Source of the DNA: Rhodospirillaceae bacterium
GTDB lineage: Bacteria > Pseudomonadota > Alphaproteobacteria > MPNO01 > UBA2964
Direction: 5' to 3'
DNA: 64,000 nt
NCBI GenBank assembly: GCA_002720855.1
Contig: PBIN01000002.1
Span: 267,930 to 331,929 of the forward strand
In this document: positions 5,072-12,829 of the stretch, one piece after another
How the letters are laid out: each line of letters opens with the position of its first letter
Numbering within the stretch: position 1 is the first letter of the stretch
The notes under the pieces: model-generated
The model's database searches: none
What the model was told of the DNA's origin: nothing
The model's input: the letters and a program-made list of their open reading frames with translations, nothing else
Translations under genes and position numbers: made by a program

Positions 5072-6580
5072 ATGAAAAATCATACTGTTAGGACCTATTC
5101 CTCAAAAGAAGAATTGGACCGCGAAGAAGAGTTGGCATGGAAACTCGCTTGCCTCGCTTCCGATCCTGTTCCGATTGATGAAGATGTATCGGATATGGTG
5201 ATCAACCGGATCATCGATAATGCCTCAGTGGCAATGGCTGCAATCAATAGAGCACCTCCGTCAGCGGCCCGTGCTCAGGCAATCGCCCACCCTCGGAAAA
5301 ATGGTGCTGCGGTGTTTGGTGTTTCCAACGATCAGAAATTTGATGCTGAATGGGCGGCCTGGGCAAATGGCACTGCGGTTCGCGAACTGGATTATCATGA
5401 TACCTTTCTGGCAGCCGATTACGCGCATCCTGGTGACAATATTCCTCCGCTGCTGGCAGTGGCGCAGCAGCTCGGTAGAAATGGTCAGGATCTTCTCAAC
5501 GGGCTTGTCACCGGTTACGAAATTCAGATCGATCTCGTGCGATCAATTTGTTTGCACGAGCATAAAATCGATCATGTTGCTCATCTCGGCCCCTCAGCCG
5601 CCGCCGGAATTGGGACGATGCTCGGTCTGTCGACAGAGACAATCTACCAATCGATCCAGCAAGCTTTGCATGTGACGACGGCGACCAGGCAGTCTCGAAA
5701 AGGGCAGATATCCAGTTGGAAAGCGTTCGCCCCATCGCATGCCGGTAAACTGGCTATTGAAGCGGTCGACCGGTGTATGCGCGGTGAAGGAGCGCCGTCG
5801 CCGATTTATGAGGGAGAGGACGGCGTAATTGCCTGGATGCTATCCGGTCCGGACGCTTCTTATTCGGTACCATTGCCGGAAAAAGGCGAGGCCAAACGCG
5901 CTATTCTGGACTCATTTACCAAAGAGCATTCGGCGGAATACCAAAGTCAGGCGTTAATAGATTTGGCGTTTCGGATGAAAGAAAAGATTGACGATTTCGA
6001 AGCGATTGAACGAGTTGTAATCCATACTAGTCATCATACGCATTATGTCATCGGGACGGGCGCAGGTGATCCTCAAAAAATGGATCCCACAGCAAGCCGT
6101 GAAACTCTGGATCATTCGATTATGTATATATTTGCTGTCGCTCTGCAGGATGGCGAATGGCACCACATCCGCTCCTATCATCCGGATCGAGCTGGCCGGG
6201 AAGATACCGTCCGGTTATGGCACAAGATCGAGACGGCAGAAGATGCGGAATGGACGGCCCGCTATCACGAAAAGGACCCTGATAAATTGGCTTTTGGCGG
6301 CCGGGTAGAAATTACTATGAAAGATGGTTCGGTAATCTCAGATGAATTAGCGGTTGCGAATGCCCATACGAATGGCGCACGACCATTTGCTCGCGAAAAC
6401 TATATCCACAAGTTCCGGATTTTGACGGAAGGACTTGTTTCGTCGTCAGAGCAGGATCGGTTTTTAGACCTCGTTCAGCGTCTGCCAGAGCTGGGTCCTG
6501 AAGACGTTGGACAAATCAATGTTGTTCTCGATGAAGTTGCGCTTGAGAACGGAACCCGCGACCAAAGAGGAATTTTCTGA
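5072..6580 (+). CDS. prpD: MmgE/PrpD-family 2-methylcitrate dehydratase
   Basis: Probable 2-methylcitrate dehydratase (methylcitrate to 2-methylaconitate) of the methylcitrate cycle that consumes propionyl-CoA, 502 residues. Family features include [11 protein letters not shown], the [13 protein letters not shown] segment and a C-terminal stretch with [12 protein letters not shown]. An upstream ATG at 5030 would add 14 unsupported residues; the start at MKNHTVR fits the family better. It overlaps prpB by one base (TGATG), so the two are translationally coupled, and prpC follows. Other MmgE/PrpD proteins act on different tricarboxylates, but the prpB and prpC neighbours make the methylcitrate role likely. 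Confidence 0.87.
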
Positions 6581-7479
6581 TGCTATTTCCGACTAAATCG
6601 GCTGCCGAAAAGCGAGCAGACTTCCGGACAGGGCTAAATTCGGGAAAAATCCAACGCTTTCCTGGGGCGCATGCTCCTTTGGTTTCTATGGAAATCGAGC
6701 GGCAGGGGTTTGATGGCATTTACATTTCCGGCGCGGCACTCTCAGCTGATCTTGGCCTGCCGGATATTGGTCTCACAACACTTTCGGAAGTAACGCAAAG
6801 GGGGCGCCAGATAGCCCGGGTCACGTCGCTTCCGGCGATCATAGATATTGATACTGGCTTTGGCGAACCCATGAGTGCTGCACGTACCATTCAGGAGCTG
6901 GAAGAGCTTGGAATTGCCGGTTGTCATCTTGAAGATCAGGAAAACCCCAAACGATGTGGGCATCTCGATAATAAATCGTTGATCGGTATCGATGATATGG
7001 CGCGTAAAATTATGGCGGCGGCAGATGCAAAAACCGATCCCAATTTCGTTCTCTTTGCGCGTACAGATTCTCGGGCATCGGAAGGGATGGATGCCGCGAT
7101 TGACCGGGCGAAAGCCTATGTGGACGCGGGCGCCGACGCGCTTTTCCCCGAAGCAATGGAAGATGAGAAAGAATTCGAGATATTTCGTAAAGCCGTCGAC
7201 GTGCCCATGATGGCAAATATGACGGAGTTTGGTAAATCGCCGCTGCTCTCAGCGCAGCAATTGGAGAATCTTGGTTACAATCTGGTGATATATCCGGTTA
7301 CGACCATGCGTTTGGCGATGGGTGCCATCCGCGATGGTTTGAAAGAAGTCGCTGAAACGGGAACCCAGTCAGGTCTCGTCGACAAAATGCACAGCCGGAA
7401 AGAACTCTACGATTTGATCCGGTACCAGGATTACAACAACTACGATCAGTCAGTATACAACTTCAAAGTCAGGGAATAA
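6580..7479 (+). CDS. prpB: 2-methylisocitrate lyase
   Basis: Cleaves 2-methylisocitrate to pyruvate and succinate in the methylcitrate cycle; member of the isocitrate lyase/PEP mutase superfamily, 299 residues. The catalytic loop NPKRCGH is at about residues 124-130, which is the PrpB form. IDIDTGFGE provides Mg ligands, and FARTDSRASEG follows. The start ATG overlaps the prpD stop codon. The gene is 10 bases upstream of the citrate synthase homologue, so prpD-prpB-prpC form one transcription unit. No prpR-type activator gene is seen beside it. Confidence 0.93.
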   Translation: MLFPTKSAAEKRADFRTGLNSGKIQRFPGAHAPLVSMEIERQGFDGIYISGAALSADLGLPDIGLTTLSEVTQRGRQIARVTSLPAIIDIDTGFGEPMSAARTIQELEELGIAGCHLEDQENPKRCGHLDNKSLIGIDDMARKIMAAADAKTDPNFVLFARTDSRASEGMDAAIDRAKAYVDAGADALFPEAMEDEKEFEIFRKAVDVPMMANMTEFGKSPLLSAQQLENLGYNLVIYPVTTMRLAMGAIRDGLKEVAETGTQSGLVDKMHSRKELYDLIRYQDYNNYDQSVYNFKVRE

Positions 7480-7489
7480 GGGGTACGGG

Positions 7490-8620
7490 ATGGCCAAGGC
7501 ACCAAAGATTTTCAAGGGTTTAGACGGCGTAACGGTCGATGAAACGGCAATATCCAAGGTAATGCCGGAGACAAATTCACTGACCTATCGCGGCTACGCA
7601 GTGCAGGATTTGTGCAAACATTGCTGTTTCGAGGAAGTTGCCTACTTGTTGTGGCATGGTCAATTGCCGACCCGCTCGCAACTGCGTGCCTTTAGAAAGG
7701 ATGAGCGAAGCCGCAGAAATATTTCGCGCGATCATTTGGCAGTTATTCAAAAGTTTCCCAAACGCGCGCATCCGATGGACACAATCCGTACCGCCGTAAG
7801 CTATCTGGGGACGACCGAGGTTGCCTGGGGAGGTGAGCCTGCGGACGCAGATATGAACCGGTCGATGAATTTGCTGGCTAAAATTCCTACGATGGTTGCC
7901 GCTGATTATCGTTACCGCCAGGGAAAAAGACGAATTCCTCCCAAAGACAATCTTTCATTTTCGGAGAACTTTCTTCACATGTGTTTCGGCGAGGTGCCGC
8001 CAAAACAGGTCGTGAAGGCATTCGATATATCTTTAATTCTTTATGCAGAGCACAGTTTTAACGCTTCGACTTTTGCTACGCGCGTTGTCACCTCGACAAT
8101 GTCAGATATTTACAGTGCCGTCACAGCAGGGATAGGCGCCCTAAAGGGTCCGCTTCATGGTGGAGCCAATGAGGCGGTAATGCATATGCTATTGGAAATT
8201 GGCCGCGCCGACAAAGCAGAAGCATGGCTTCGCGATGCGTTTGCGAACAAACGCGTTGTCATGGGTTTTGGGCATCGGGTTTACAAATGGGGCGATAGCC
8301 GTGTGCCCACAATGCGGGCGTGTTTGGAGGACCTCGCGCGATGGAAGAATGATCGTCAGTGGATTGAAATCGAGGACGTTCTCGAAGACATCATGGTCAA
8401 AGAGAAGAAGATCCATCCCAATCTCGATTATCCGGCGGGCCCTGCTTATTACATGATGGGTTTCGATATCGATATGTATACGCCGATCTTCGTCATGAGC
8501 CGGATCACCGGCTGGACGGCGCATTATATGGAGCAAAATGCGGCAAACAGATTGATCCGGCCGCTATCCGCTTATACCGGAGTAAAACAAAGACGGGTAA
8601 AGCCTATTGCCAAGCGGTGA
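7490..8620 (+). CDS. prpC: 2-methylcitrate synthase (citrate synthase family)
   Basis: Condenses propionyl-CoA with oxaloacetate. At 376 residues it has the short citrate synthase length typical of 2-methylcitrate synthases. Catalytic regions are visible: histidine in GPLHGGANE, histidine in GHRVYK, and the aspartate in NLDYPAG. The C-terminus ends SAYTGVKQRRVKP, a familiar end for this family. Context (prpD and prpB immediately upstream) supports methylcitrate rather than citrate synthesis. The last 14 bases overlap the TTG start of the following hydrolase gene. Confidence 0.93.
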   Translation: MAKAPKIFKGLDGVTVDETAISKVMPETNSLTYRGYAVQDLCKHCCFEEVAYLLWHGQLPTRSQLRAFRKDERSRRNISRDHLAVIQKFPKRAHPMDTIRTAVSYLGTTEVAWGGEPADADMNRSMNLLAKIPTMVAADYRYRQGKRRIPPKDNLSFSENFLHMCFGEVPPKQVVKAFDISLILYAEHSFNASTFATRVVTSTMSDIYSAVTAGIGALKGPLHGGANEAVMHMLLEIGRADKAEAWLRDAFANKRVVMGFGHRVYKWGDSRVPTMRACLEDLARWKNDRQWIEIEDVLEDIMVKEKKIHPNLDYPAGPAYYMMGFDIDMYTPIFVMSRITGWTAHYMEQNAANRLIRPLSAYTGVKQRRVKPIAKR

Positions 8621-9977
8621 TGTTCCTCGCCTTCCGCCGAGTCCCAATTATCGGATACTGGAAGGACCTGTTGGAACACTCCTTTTGCGGCCGTGGTTCG
8701 ATACCGTTGCTCTCAATGCCATCGCAAAATGGTTCTGTCCTCTTTCACGCGGGTGGGCGGCAGCCTGTGTGAGTGAGGGGTCTAAAGACCAGTTTATTGC
8801 TGAGCTTGGTATTTCATCTGATGAAATTTCCATAAAACCTTCCAAGCTCCAAAAAGTCCACGCGAGCAGACGGCGTTATGGCCAGACAAAGAATAATTGG
8901 GAGGACGTTTACTTCGGTGATTCAGTATCCACGCCTGAGGAACTTGTTCGCGCTCAAAGAGAGCTTGCATCAGCAGAACATGAGCAGCTACGTCTGCGCC
9001 GCCTGTTTCTTTCGCATCGATCACGGATGCCCTTGCTTAAATGGTCGGTTGCTACTCCCCAAGAAGTTGCTGCTATTCATCAAACACGTTTAACAAACGA
9101 AGCGTTTCCTGCACCGCCCGAAACCGAAATTATGCAATCCGTCTCCGTTTTAGGGGAGTGGGGCGAAGAGTTTCATCTAAAGCTGCAATCGCCCACCGAC
9201 GTCTCTTCCGATACTGCTCGCGCGCATGTGTTCCTGCCAGAAGATGGAAAAATTCGCGCAACTTTGGTTTTGCTCCATGGCATTTGCCTTGAGCCGGTGA
9301 TGTGGGATGCACTGGCCTATCCAGCCAAGGCGCTGACTCGTCAGGGTGTACGTGTTGTGCTTCCAACAGGGCCGTGGCATGGGCGGCGGGCACCTGAGGG
9401 CCAATTCGGTGGAGAGAACATCCTGATGCGCGGTCCGCTCGGGTTCATAGATGCGTTTAAGGCTTGGGTTGCGGAGTCAGCGCTGTGGATCCGATGGTCG
9501 CGTTCCACTGCGAATGGTCCGGTCGGACTGGGCGGTGTTAGTCTTGGAGCATTAACCGCGCAATTGGCAACAGTGGCATCTCGCGATTGGCCGGACAATG
9601 ATCAACCGGACGCAATAATGTTGATTACCACATCGGGTGATATGACCGATGTTGCCTTCGGTAGCGTCATGGCTGACAAGCTTACCTTGACCCAACGCAT
9701 CAGTGAGAAGAGGTGGACGGCGGAAACATTGTCCCAATGGTTGCCCTTATTGCAGCCGGAGGGTGAGCCGGTGATCTCGCAGGAGAAGATCGTGATGTTG
9801 CTTGGAAGCGCTGACCGGCTAACCCCTTTCGAGGGCGGTTTGGCGCTGGCGCAGAGATGGAAAATTCCTGAAGAAAATCTATTTATCAGGCGGCAGGGTC
9901 ATTTTTCTGGCGCACTTGGCTTGTCGCATGATGCAACGCCATTGAAGAGATTTACGGAAATTCTATTGCAGAGCTAA
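8607..9977 (+). CDS. Alpha/beta hydrolase with long N-terminal extension
   Basis: Serine hydrolase-like protein of 456 residues. The oxyanion-hole motif VLLHGICLE is near residue 224, and the nucleophile elbow GGVSLG lies near residue 315. A late acid (GSADRLTPFEGG) and histidine (RQGHFSG) complete a plausible triad. The first 200 residues are not a standard hydrolase core and recall the ABHD18/DUF2048 type, which I state with low certainty. The only usable start is TTG at 8607, inside the prpC end; an in-frame TAA lies three codons upstream. The overlap implies coupling to the methylcitrate operon, but no role there is known to me. Confidence 0.72.
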   Translation: MPSGDVPRLPPSPNYRILEGPVGTLLLRPWFDTVALNAIAKWFCPLSRGWAAACVSEGSKDQFIAELGISSDEISIKPSKLQKVHASRRRYGQTKNNWEDVYFGDSVSTPEELVRAQRELASAEHEQLRLRRLFLSHRSRMPLLKWSVATPQEVAAIHQTRLTNEAFPAPPETEIMQSVSVLGEWGEEFHLKLQSPTDVSSDTARAHVFLPEDGKIRATLVLLHGICLEPVMWDALAYPAKALTRQGVRVVLPTGPWHGRRAPEGQFGGENILMRGPLGFIDAFKAWVAESALWIRWSRSTANGPVGLGGVSLGALTAQLATVASRDWPDNDQPDAIMLITTSGDMTDVAFGSVMADKLTLTQRISEKRWTAETLSQWLPLLQPEGEPVISQEKIVMLLGSADRLTPFEGGLALAQRWKIPEENLFIRRQGHFSGALGLSHDATPLKRFTEILLQS

Positions 9978-10893: not shown

Positions 10894-11043
10894 GTGAAGG
10901 TGCCTACGACGGATAGGAGGTTAAGTTAATTTTTAGCAGTCATAGCGCATGGCGGCGTGTCGGGAAACCGGCAACCCTGTTCGCGCCAGCAACATGCTGC
11001 TTAAATAGAAAAATCGAAGCCAATTCCCGCTTTGGAGCGACAC

Positions 11044-11358
11044 ATGATTTATGAAGAACGCATTTACACAATTCAGCCCGGCAAGATCGCCGAATATATG
11101 AAAAACTATGAAGAGTTGGGCCTGCCTGTGCAGAAGGAGGTCCTCGGCACACTCGTAGGGTTCTGGCATACCGACGTCGGTGGATTAAACAAGGTTGTTC
11201 ACATTTGGGGTTATGACTCACTGGATGATCGTCTCGAAAAACGGGCAATTCTTGCAGCCCATCCAGATTGGCCGGCATATCTCGATGTTGCTTTGCCGTT
11301 GATCGTTGAACAGGAAAACCGCGTCCTACATCCTGCAAGCTTCTCACCTGCGAACTAA
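11044..11358 (+). CDS. NIPSNAP-family dimeric alpha/beta-barrel protein (second copy)
   Basis: 104 residues, same family as 4612-4926 and about half identical to it over its full length, with YEERIYTIQPGK, HIWGYDS and EQEN in the same places. An ATG (MIYEER) is preferred over an in-frame start four codons earlier because it aligns exactly with the N-terminus of the paralog. It is followed after 23 bases by an SDR gene. Its function is probably that of an accessory catabolic enzyme or binding protein, but no activity can be assigned. Confidence 0.85.
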   Translation: MIYEERIYTIQPGKIAEYMKNYEELGLPVQKEVLGTLVGFWHTDVGGLNKVVHIWGYDSLDDRLEKRAILAAHPDWPAYLDVALPLIVEQENRVLHPASFSPAN

Positions 11359-11381
11359 TAGACGCCAAAAAGGAATTTGAA

Positions 11382-12140
11382 ATGCCAAGACTGGAAGACG
11401 ACGTTGCCATTGTGACCGGAGCCGCCCGCGGAATTGGCGCCGCCTATGCCAAAGCACTCGCGGAAGAAGGAGCAAAAGTCGTCGTATCCGATATCCTCGA
11501 TACAAAGACTACAGTGGATGAAATCAATGGTTCGGGAGGCACGGCAATCGGCGTTGGATGCGATGTCACGGACAACGATGCCGTGGATGCAATGGTTAAT
11601 ACCGTTATCTCCGAGTATGGAAAAATTGATGCGCTGGTAAATAATGCCGCGGTCTTTGCCGATATCACCCACAAACGGTTTGAAGATATTCCTGATGACG
11701 AGTGGGCGATGGTCATGCAGGTGAATATTCAGGGTGTTTGGCGTGTATCAAAGGCCGTCGTACCGCATATGCGGGAGAGGCAATATGGCAAGATCGTCAA
11801 TGTGGCATCGACAACCGCTCTCAAGGGAACGCCGATGATGTTGCATTACGTTTCCTCCAAGGGTGCTATCCTCGGGATGACAAAATCGATGGCACGCGAG
11901 GTCGGAGAAGACAATATCTGCGTCAACGCGATTGCACCGGGACTGGTGATAAGCGACGGCATTGTACAAGGCGGCAACTGGAATGAGGATTGGATTGATA
12001 ACAACACCAACACACGCGCCATAAAAAGGCGGGCGATGCCGGAGGATATGGTCGGCACAATTGTGTTTCTATCGTCACGGGAAGCCAATTTTATTACCGG
12101 TCAGACGGTGGCGGTTGATGGTGGGTCGGTGCCCCACTAA
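11382..12140 (+). CDS. SDR-family oxidoreductase
   Basis: Classical short-chain dehydrogenase of 252 residues. It has the NAD(P)-binding TGAARGIG, NNAAV, the catalytic serine region NVASTTA, and an intact catalytic YVSSK. The C-terminus ends with GQTVAVDGGS, typical of the FabG-like group. A good ribosome-binding site (AAGGA) precedes the ATG. It lies between the second NIPSNAP gene and the DsbA-like gene, all on the plus strand and probably cotranscribed. An acidic residue (SDIL) after the second strand suggests NAD preference. The alcohol or ketone substrate is not known. Confidence 0.9.
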   Translation: MPRLEDDVAIVTGAARGIGAAYAKALAEEGAKVVVSDILDTKTTVDEINGSGGTAIGVGCDVTDNDAVDAMVNTVISEYGKIDALVNNAAVFADITHKRFEDIPDDEWAMVMQVNIQGVWRVSKAVVPHMRERQYGKIVNVASTTALKGTPMMLHYVSSKGAILGMTKSMAREVGEDNICVNAIAPGLVISDGIVQGGNWNEDWIDNNTNTRAIKRRAMPEDMVGTIVFLSSREANFITGQTVAVDGGSVPH

Positions 12141-12208
12141 TTGACTTTTCACTCGCCGCGACAAACGTCACGTGCGAAGCTTGGTTTCAAATAAATGGGA
12201 GTATTTGG

Positions 12209-12829
12209 ATGACTGAACCGGTAACGGTGGAAATTTTCACCGATTATGTCTGACCGTGGTGTTTTCTCAGTACCGTGCGTATTGAAAAGCTAAAACGGAA
12301 TTTTAACATCAACGTTAAACTGGTGCTTTTTCCCCTGCATCCTGAAACGCCGCAGGAAGGCCGTCTGATTAGCGATCTCTATGCCGGGCGCAATATGGAC
12401 CCCCAGGAGATGTACGATCAGATGAAAGAGCGGATGAATGCGGAAGGTTTGCCCTACGGTAAACGTACCCACACCTATAATAGCCGCAAAGCGCAGGAGC
12501 TGGGTAAATGGGCCGACACGCAGGAAAATGGTGACGCTTTGCATGATGCGCTTTATCGCGCCTATTTCGTAGATACCAAGAACATCGCCGACATGGATGT
12601 ATTAATCGATGTTGTAAATTCGGTAGGACTTGACGGCGAAGAAGCGCGCAAGGTTCTGGAGGAGGGGACCTTCAATCAGGCTGTGGATGAGGACTGGGCA
12701 AAGTCTCGCGCGTACGGCGTGACAGGAGTCCCGACATATGTCGCAGGCGGCTATGGCGTTGTCGGTGCGCAACCCTACGAAGCGCTTGAACAGCTCATGA
12801 AAGAAGCAGGTGTCGAGGAGCGCACTTAG
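12209..12829 (+). CDS. DsbA/FrnE-family oxidoreductase with in-frame TGA at the redox Cys (putative selenoprotein)
   Basis: Thioredoxin-fold DsbA-family protein of 206 residues if the TGA at 12251-12253 is read as selenocysteine. From ATG 12209, preceded by GGGAG at 12197-12201, the protein begins MTEPVTVEIFTDYV; then comes TGA, then PWCFLST. FrnE/DsbA proteins have CPWC here, so the stop sits exactly at the catalytic first cysteine (UPWC, residues 15-18). The frame stays open for 191 more codons with family-typical helical domain and cis-proline loop (GVTGVPTY, Pro 175). No other lesion is present. A GTG at 12275 could start a shortened protein, but it has no ribosome-binding site and would lack the active site. 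The alternative is a fresh nonsense mutation. Confidence 0.75.
12251..12277 (+). promoter_or_regulatory. Possible bacterial SECIS-like hairpin at the TGA codon (weak)
   Basis: Bacterial selenocysteine insertion needs a hairpin immediately downstream of UGA. Bases 12255-12262 can pair with 12270-12277 around a seven-base loop, but four of eight pairs are G-U. An alternative pairs CTGA (12250-12253) with TCAG (12267-12270). Neither has a clear G near the start of the apical loop, so the element is only a candidate. Confidence 0.3.

Follow-up and report, generated by a model that had tools for sequence, protein, structure and literature searches.

Within the window, the stretch of 64,000 nt from a Rhodospirillaceae bacterium that was analysed here, lies a gene whose reading frame is intact apart from a TGA close to its start. 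The features of this gene, and of the selenocysteine (Sec) gene cluster found elsewhere in the same genome, are given below.

12198..12202, forward strand: Shine-Dalgarno-like GGGAG, 6 nt 5′ of the ATG at 12209 (read from the sequence)
12209..12829, forward strand: predicted DsbA/FrnE-type selenoprotein gene, 206 codons then TAG, with UGA as codon 15 (from the sequence and orthologues)
12251..12253, forward strand: UGA codon (predicted Sec), first residue of the U-P-W-C redox motif (from the sequence; TGA in 31/31 aligned sequences)
12261..12290, forward strand: putative bacterial SECIS (bSECIS) hairpin, with lower stem 12261–12265/12286–12290, bulged C 12266, upper stem 12267–12273/12279–12285 and apical loop CGUGC 12274–12278
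12725..12733, forward strand: Gly-Val-Pro codons, matching the conserved cis-Pro loop of the Trx fold (from alignment with the GVP of FrnE; position approximate to the codon)
Locus L009 (contig C15, 108000–127000), positions within the locus: selA 6377–7819, selB 7816–9729, tRNA-Sec gene next

The TGA at codon 15 is the sole interruption of the frame 12209–12829; 191 sense codons separate it from the terminal TAG at 12827–12829, and Cys18 is the single cysteine of the 206-aa product. An ordinary ORF call at the locus yields a 184-aa fragment that starts from a GTG at 12275 and is without the active site.

In terms of fold, the read-through product matches the Pfam family DSBA (PF01323) over residues 6–197 (120 bits, E = 1.3e-34, cut-off 25.6), such that a PF01323 domain and a UxxC motif (UPWC) are both present. 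Among solved structures it is most like FrnE (5cp1/5cnw; E = 1.5e-26, residues 2–200) and Streptomyces SCO1869 (3gl5); these solved FrnE relatives settle the fold of the product. The match to the FrnE proteins keeps both the position of the CP(W/F)C motif and the cis-Pro: codon 15 aligns with the first Cys of CPWC, the Cys homologues carry CPWC at this position (CPFC in one case), and GVP is common to the product and FrnE. The original prediction, which had described a single in-frame TGA at the first CPWC cysteine, a ribosome-binding site before the ATG, a frame open for 191 codons beyond the TGA and a family cis-Pro loop, is borne out on each of these points.

The predicted selenoprotein shares with Deinococcus radiodurans FrnE (DR_0659; 5cnw, 5cp1) and SCO1869 the DsbA-like Trx domain, the position of the active-site motif, the GVP cis-Pro loop, a VxGAQ motif and the lack of an apparent signal peptide, whereas these two proteins, at about 30% identity, have Cys where it has the predicted Sec. 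It differs further from D. radiodurans FrnE, which uses a C-terminal CXXXXC motif for regeneration (PMC8945050), in that no such motif was found when the product was inspected for it, Cys18 being the only cysteine. The CXXXXC motif is present in many but not all FrnE proteins and is not obligatory, and it is likewise missing from Streptomyces roseofulvus FrnE (PMC8945050). A search of the product against NCBIfam gave no model above its cut-off. The same genome also contains a Cys-type (CPWC) FrnE-like DsbA paralogue (L019:1498–2160) with about 29% identity to the selenoprotein.

Orthologues were collected with a search that reads through stops and therefore has no bias against Cys forms. The gene is found in 21 of 97 related genomes, counting that of the window, at 60–100% identity and with exactly one internal stop, TGA, in each; among 385 genomes sampled from the class there are 11 more orthologues, each with one TGA. 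In total, 32 alphaproteobacterial genomes have an orthologue at ≥60% identity, with exactly one internal TGA in every case. The alignment of homologues at codon 15 that had been proposed as a check was made for 31 of these (G016 was left out, its locus not having been fetched), and TGA stands at codon 15 in all 31, namely the gene itself and its orthologues in 30 other genomes, within the sequence TGA-CCN-TGG-TGY. Above about 37% identity the search gave no Cys orthologue; all remaining homologues lie at or below about this value, and none of them has a TGA. In a tree of these 31 predicted Sec proteins and 23 Cys proteins, the Sec proteins lie to the same side of a branch supported at 97/98; several of the Cys rows are long branches, which makes the choice of a nearest Cys relative uncertain. 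Searches of viral contigs returned no relative of the gene, and searches of plasmids returned relatives only below 60% identity.

These comparisons bear on the reading in which the TGA is an ordinary stop and the true product is the 184-aa protein from the internal GTG. That start is what the standard ORF call puts out, but the Pfam and PDB matches already begin 5′ of the TGA, residues 8–14 are conserved among the orthologues (E8, F10, D12, Y13, V14), no ribosome-binding site is visible 5′ of 12275, and the GTG codon itself is GGG in L048–L051, L054 and L055. We consider translation from this GTG highly improbable.

The predicted recoding signal is a hairpin just downstream of the TGA. The 53 nt from 12248 fold with an energy of −14.6 kcal/mol (z = −2.55). 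Published criteria for bSECIS elements are a loop of 3–9 nt with a G within its first two positions and in most cases G or U after it, an upper stem of 4–16 bp, 16–37 nt from UGA to loop and an MFE of ≤ −7.5 (PMC13188914). The hairpin falls within these limits, with a 5-nt loop, a 7-bp upper stem, a UGA–loop spacing of 20 nt and the above energy; its loop, CGUGC, has G at position 2 followed by U, and reads CGGGC in several orthologues. The same upper stem was found independently by RNAalifold, and the Rfam SECIS models gave no match to the hairpin.

The pairing is supported by covariation. Two-sided changes occur in 6 of 12 pairs, compared with a shuffle mean of 2.1, and none of 500 shuffles reached as high a number; the covariation score is 0.199 versus a shuffle mean of 0.123, with all slid versions far lower (the shuffles ignore the relatedness of the sequences; the paired changes fall in different lineages). 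In alignment columns, the U21–A31 pair becomes C–G in L035, L047, L051 and L052, in the last three of these because AGT has become AGC and ATT has become GTT (Ile to Val). The A19–U33 pair becomes U–A in L054 and L055 by a change of Ser to Cys together with ATT to ATA, and both C18–G34 and A22–U30 are exchanged in L032. The lower stem is imperfect, columns 14–37 being unpaired in 24 of the 31 sequences, and an A–C mismatch is present in the upper stem of four sequences. At family-conserved residues, the mean frequency of the major codon is 0.85 in hairpin codons 18–27 versus 0.60 in the rest of the gene (Mann-Whitney p = 1e-4).

A search of the genome for selA, selB, selC (tRNA-Sec) and selD had also been proposed, with absence of selB and tRNA-Sec named as evidence against a selenoprotein; all four genes are present. 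The tRNA-Sec scores 67.6 bits (cut-off 47) and is called by ARAGORN as tRNA-SeC with anticodon TCA, and SelB, SelA and SelD score 455, 603 and 308 bits (cut-offs 242, 267.9 and 125, respectively). The order on contig C15 is selA-selB-selC, and the cluster is compact, as no gene lies between selA, selB and tRNA-Sec: the last 4 nt of selA are shared with the selB frame, and about 43 nt separate the end of selB from the tRNA-Sec gene. SelD is encoded about 70 kb from this cluster. No Sec-containing formate dehydrogenase was found over the TIGR01553 cut-off in the genome, the partial matches being free of internal TGA, and a scan of the window for a second selenoprotein, limited to UxxC/CxxU readthrough frames of ≥60 codons, gave no other convincing candidate.

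SelB is over its cut-off in 36 of the 97 related genomes, and the TGA gene occurs in 20 of these 36 versus 1 of the 61 genomes without SelB. SelB is likewise present in all 11 further genomes, and overall 31 of the 32 orthologue-bearing genomes have selB. In the exception, G037 (77% complete), neither SelB nor an over-threshold tRNA-Sec was detected; the simplest explanation would be that contigs are missing or that the one with the gene is a stray. The TGA orthologue of G037 (G037:C77:16260–16874, L040) has a SECIS. Sixteen of the 97 genomes (G004, G005, G009, G011, G012, G015 and others), some of them incomplete assemblies, have selB but no orthologue, and their Sec system may be kept for the sake of other selenoproteins.

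UGA readthrough is a known phenomenon, and this general precedent speaks for a reading in which the TGA is decoded as Cys or Trp, whether by an altered genetic code or by near-cognate readthrough, though nothing in the present analysis favours it. The genome has the complete Sec machinery, whose occurrence goes with that of the gene, a SECIS-type covarying hairpin lies at the right distance, and TGA serves as the terminal stop of several orthologous genes; we give this reading very little credence. Still less probable, and rejected on the strength of the orthologues with TGA at the same codon, is a pseudogene or a sequencing error of TGT/TGC to TGA, for which one substitution would suffice and which would suit a gene that looks broken to standard annotation: the same TGA recurs in 31 aligned sequences of 60–100% identity from independent assemblies, with the remaining frames intact and the hairpin conserved and covarying, and is therefore neither chance nor error.

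The gene thus almost certainly encodes, as judged from sequence and comparison, a FrnE-type oxidoreductase of the DsbA fold, probably cytoplasmic, whose active site is U-P-W-C and in which UGA is read as selenocysteine, the 21st amino acid and a rare one. The UGA and its recoding hairpin, the Sec machinery, the fold and the one cysteine that is left can each be read from the sequence and its relatives, and the putative selenoprotein of the original prediction is upheld by the presence of Sec machinery, the conservation of the TGA in homologues and the covarying SECIS downstream.

From these features we infer Sec insertion itself, the redox chemistry and the substrate. During translation, the ribosome would meet the UGA at codon 15, and the mRNA hairpin, 7 nt past the UGA and with its G-containing apical loop 20 nt past it, would recruit SelB-GTP-Sec-tRNA(Sec), so that selenocysteine, from Sec-tRNA supplied by SelA and SelD, would be inserted in place of termination. 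The Sec15 selenolate would then attack a substrate disulfide or oxidised thiol, and Cys18 would resolve the mixed selenenylsulfide. As CXXXXC is absent, the oxidised form would have to be recycled by another, external thiol system of the cell. The Trx-like domain starts right at the N-terminus, with no apparent signal peptide before it, and the product is therefore probably cytoplasmic, like FrnE; Deinococcus FrnE is a cytoplasmic thiol oxidoreductase (disulfide reductase/isomerase) with a role in oxidative-stress tolerance (PMC8945050). The most likely cellular role is that of a cytoplasmic thiol/selenol oxidoreductase.

The gene is flanked by two SDR genes, with a NIPSNAP gene farther upstream. 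The upstream NIPSNAP-SDR pair (window 11032–12140) recurs in the majority of the examined members of the genus but not outside it; L029 instead keeps the NIPSNAP gene and the downstream SDR, and around more distant orthologues the genes are different, or there are SDRs of only 24–40% identity at other positions. A functional link to the flanking SDR genes was rejected, as the neighbourhood is conserved within the genus only, and the SDR/catabolic setting therefore carries little information on function.

The first report of DsbA-like UxxC selenoproteins, as COG2761, came from the Sargasso Sea (PMC1088965); D. radiodurans frnE has been assigned to the same COG (PMC1978522), and a UPWC FrnE-like selenoprotein is therefore of a known kind. 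DsbA 1 and DsbA 2 selenoproteins are common in the GOS data (PMC2398784), and a 2026 review has the entry "DsbA-like protein form 1, PF01323, UxxC" (PMC13188914). The present protein resembles form 1, which corresponds to COG2761 of the Sargasso Sea set and to DsbA 1 of the GOS set, in its PF01323 domain, in Sec as the U of UxxC and in the downstream bacterial SECIS, with no difference shown; it is a putative orthologue of the exact published form 1 cluster (members include NIP15863.1 and AACY01178397). Of the view in the original prediction that a UPWC FrnE-like form beside SDR genes was noteworthy, the form itself stands as real, whereas it is not unusual, being of the published COG2761 kind, and the SDR setting is uninformative.

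A real selenoprotein of a known kind is very strongly supported, and the interest of the gene lies in its Sec-only pattern and tightly constrained hairpin. What is mildly new about it is that only Sec forms of the subfamily were seen across the sampled genomes, that the SECIS is under strict constraint and that none of the NCBIfam models fits above its cut-off. We suggest tentatively, as an idea that may well prove wrong, that these proteins form a FrnE subfamily with obligate Sec, found widely among environmental Alphaproteobacteria, in which reversion to Cys never occurs despite common Cys FrnE paralogues coexisting in several of the same genomes; its redox role might be a dedicated one that Cys cannot adequately fill, and it might be a main reason for the retention of the Sec machinery in these genomes, with a SECIS constraint strong enough to drive paired amino-acid changes.

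Standard annotation would miss the active site and take the gene for a truncated or broken one, and the agreement of machinery, orthologues and SECIS covariation makes for a clean, fully testable Sec prediction. The Sec-only pattern over many genera offers a natural system for asking why selenium stays at the active site of a disulfide oxidoreductase in environmental Alphaproteobacteria.
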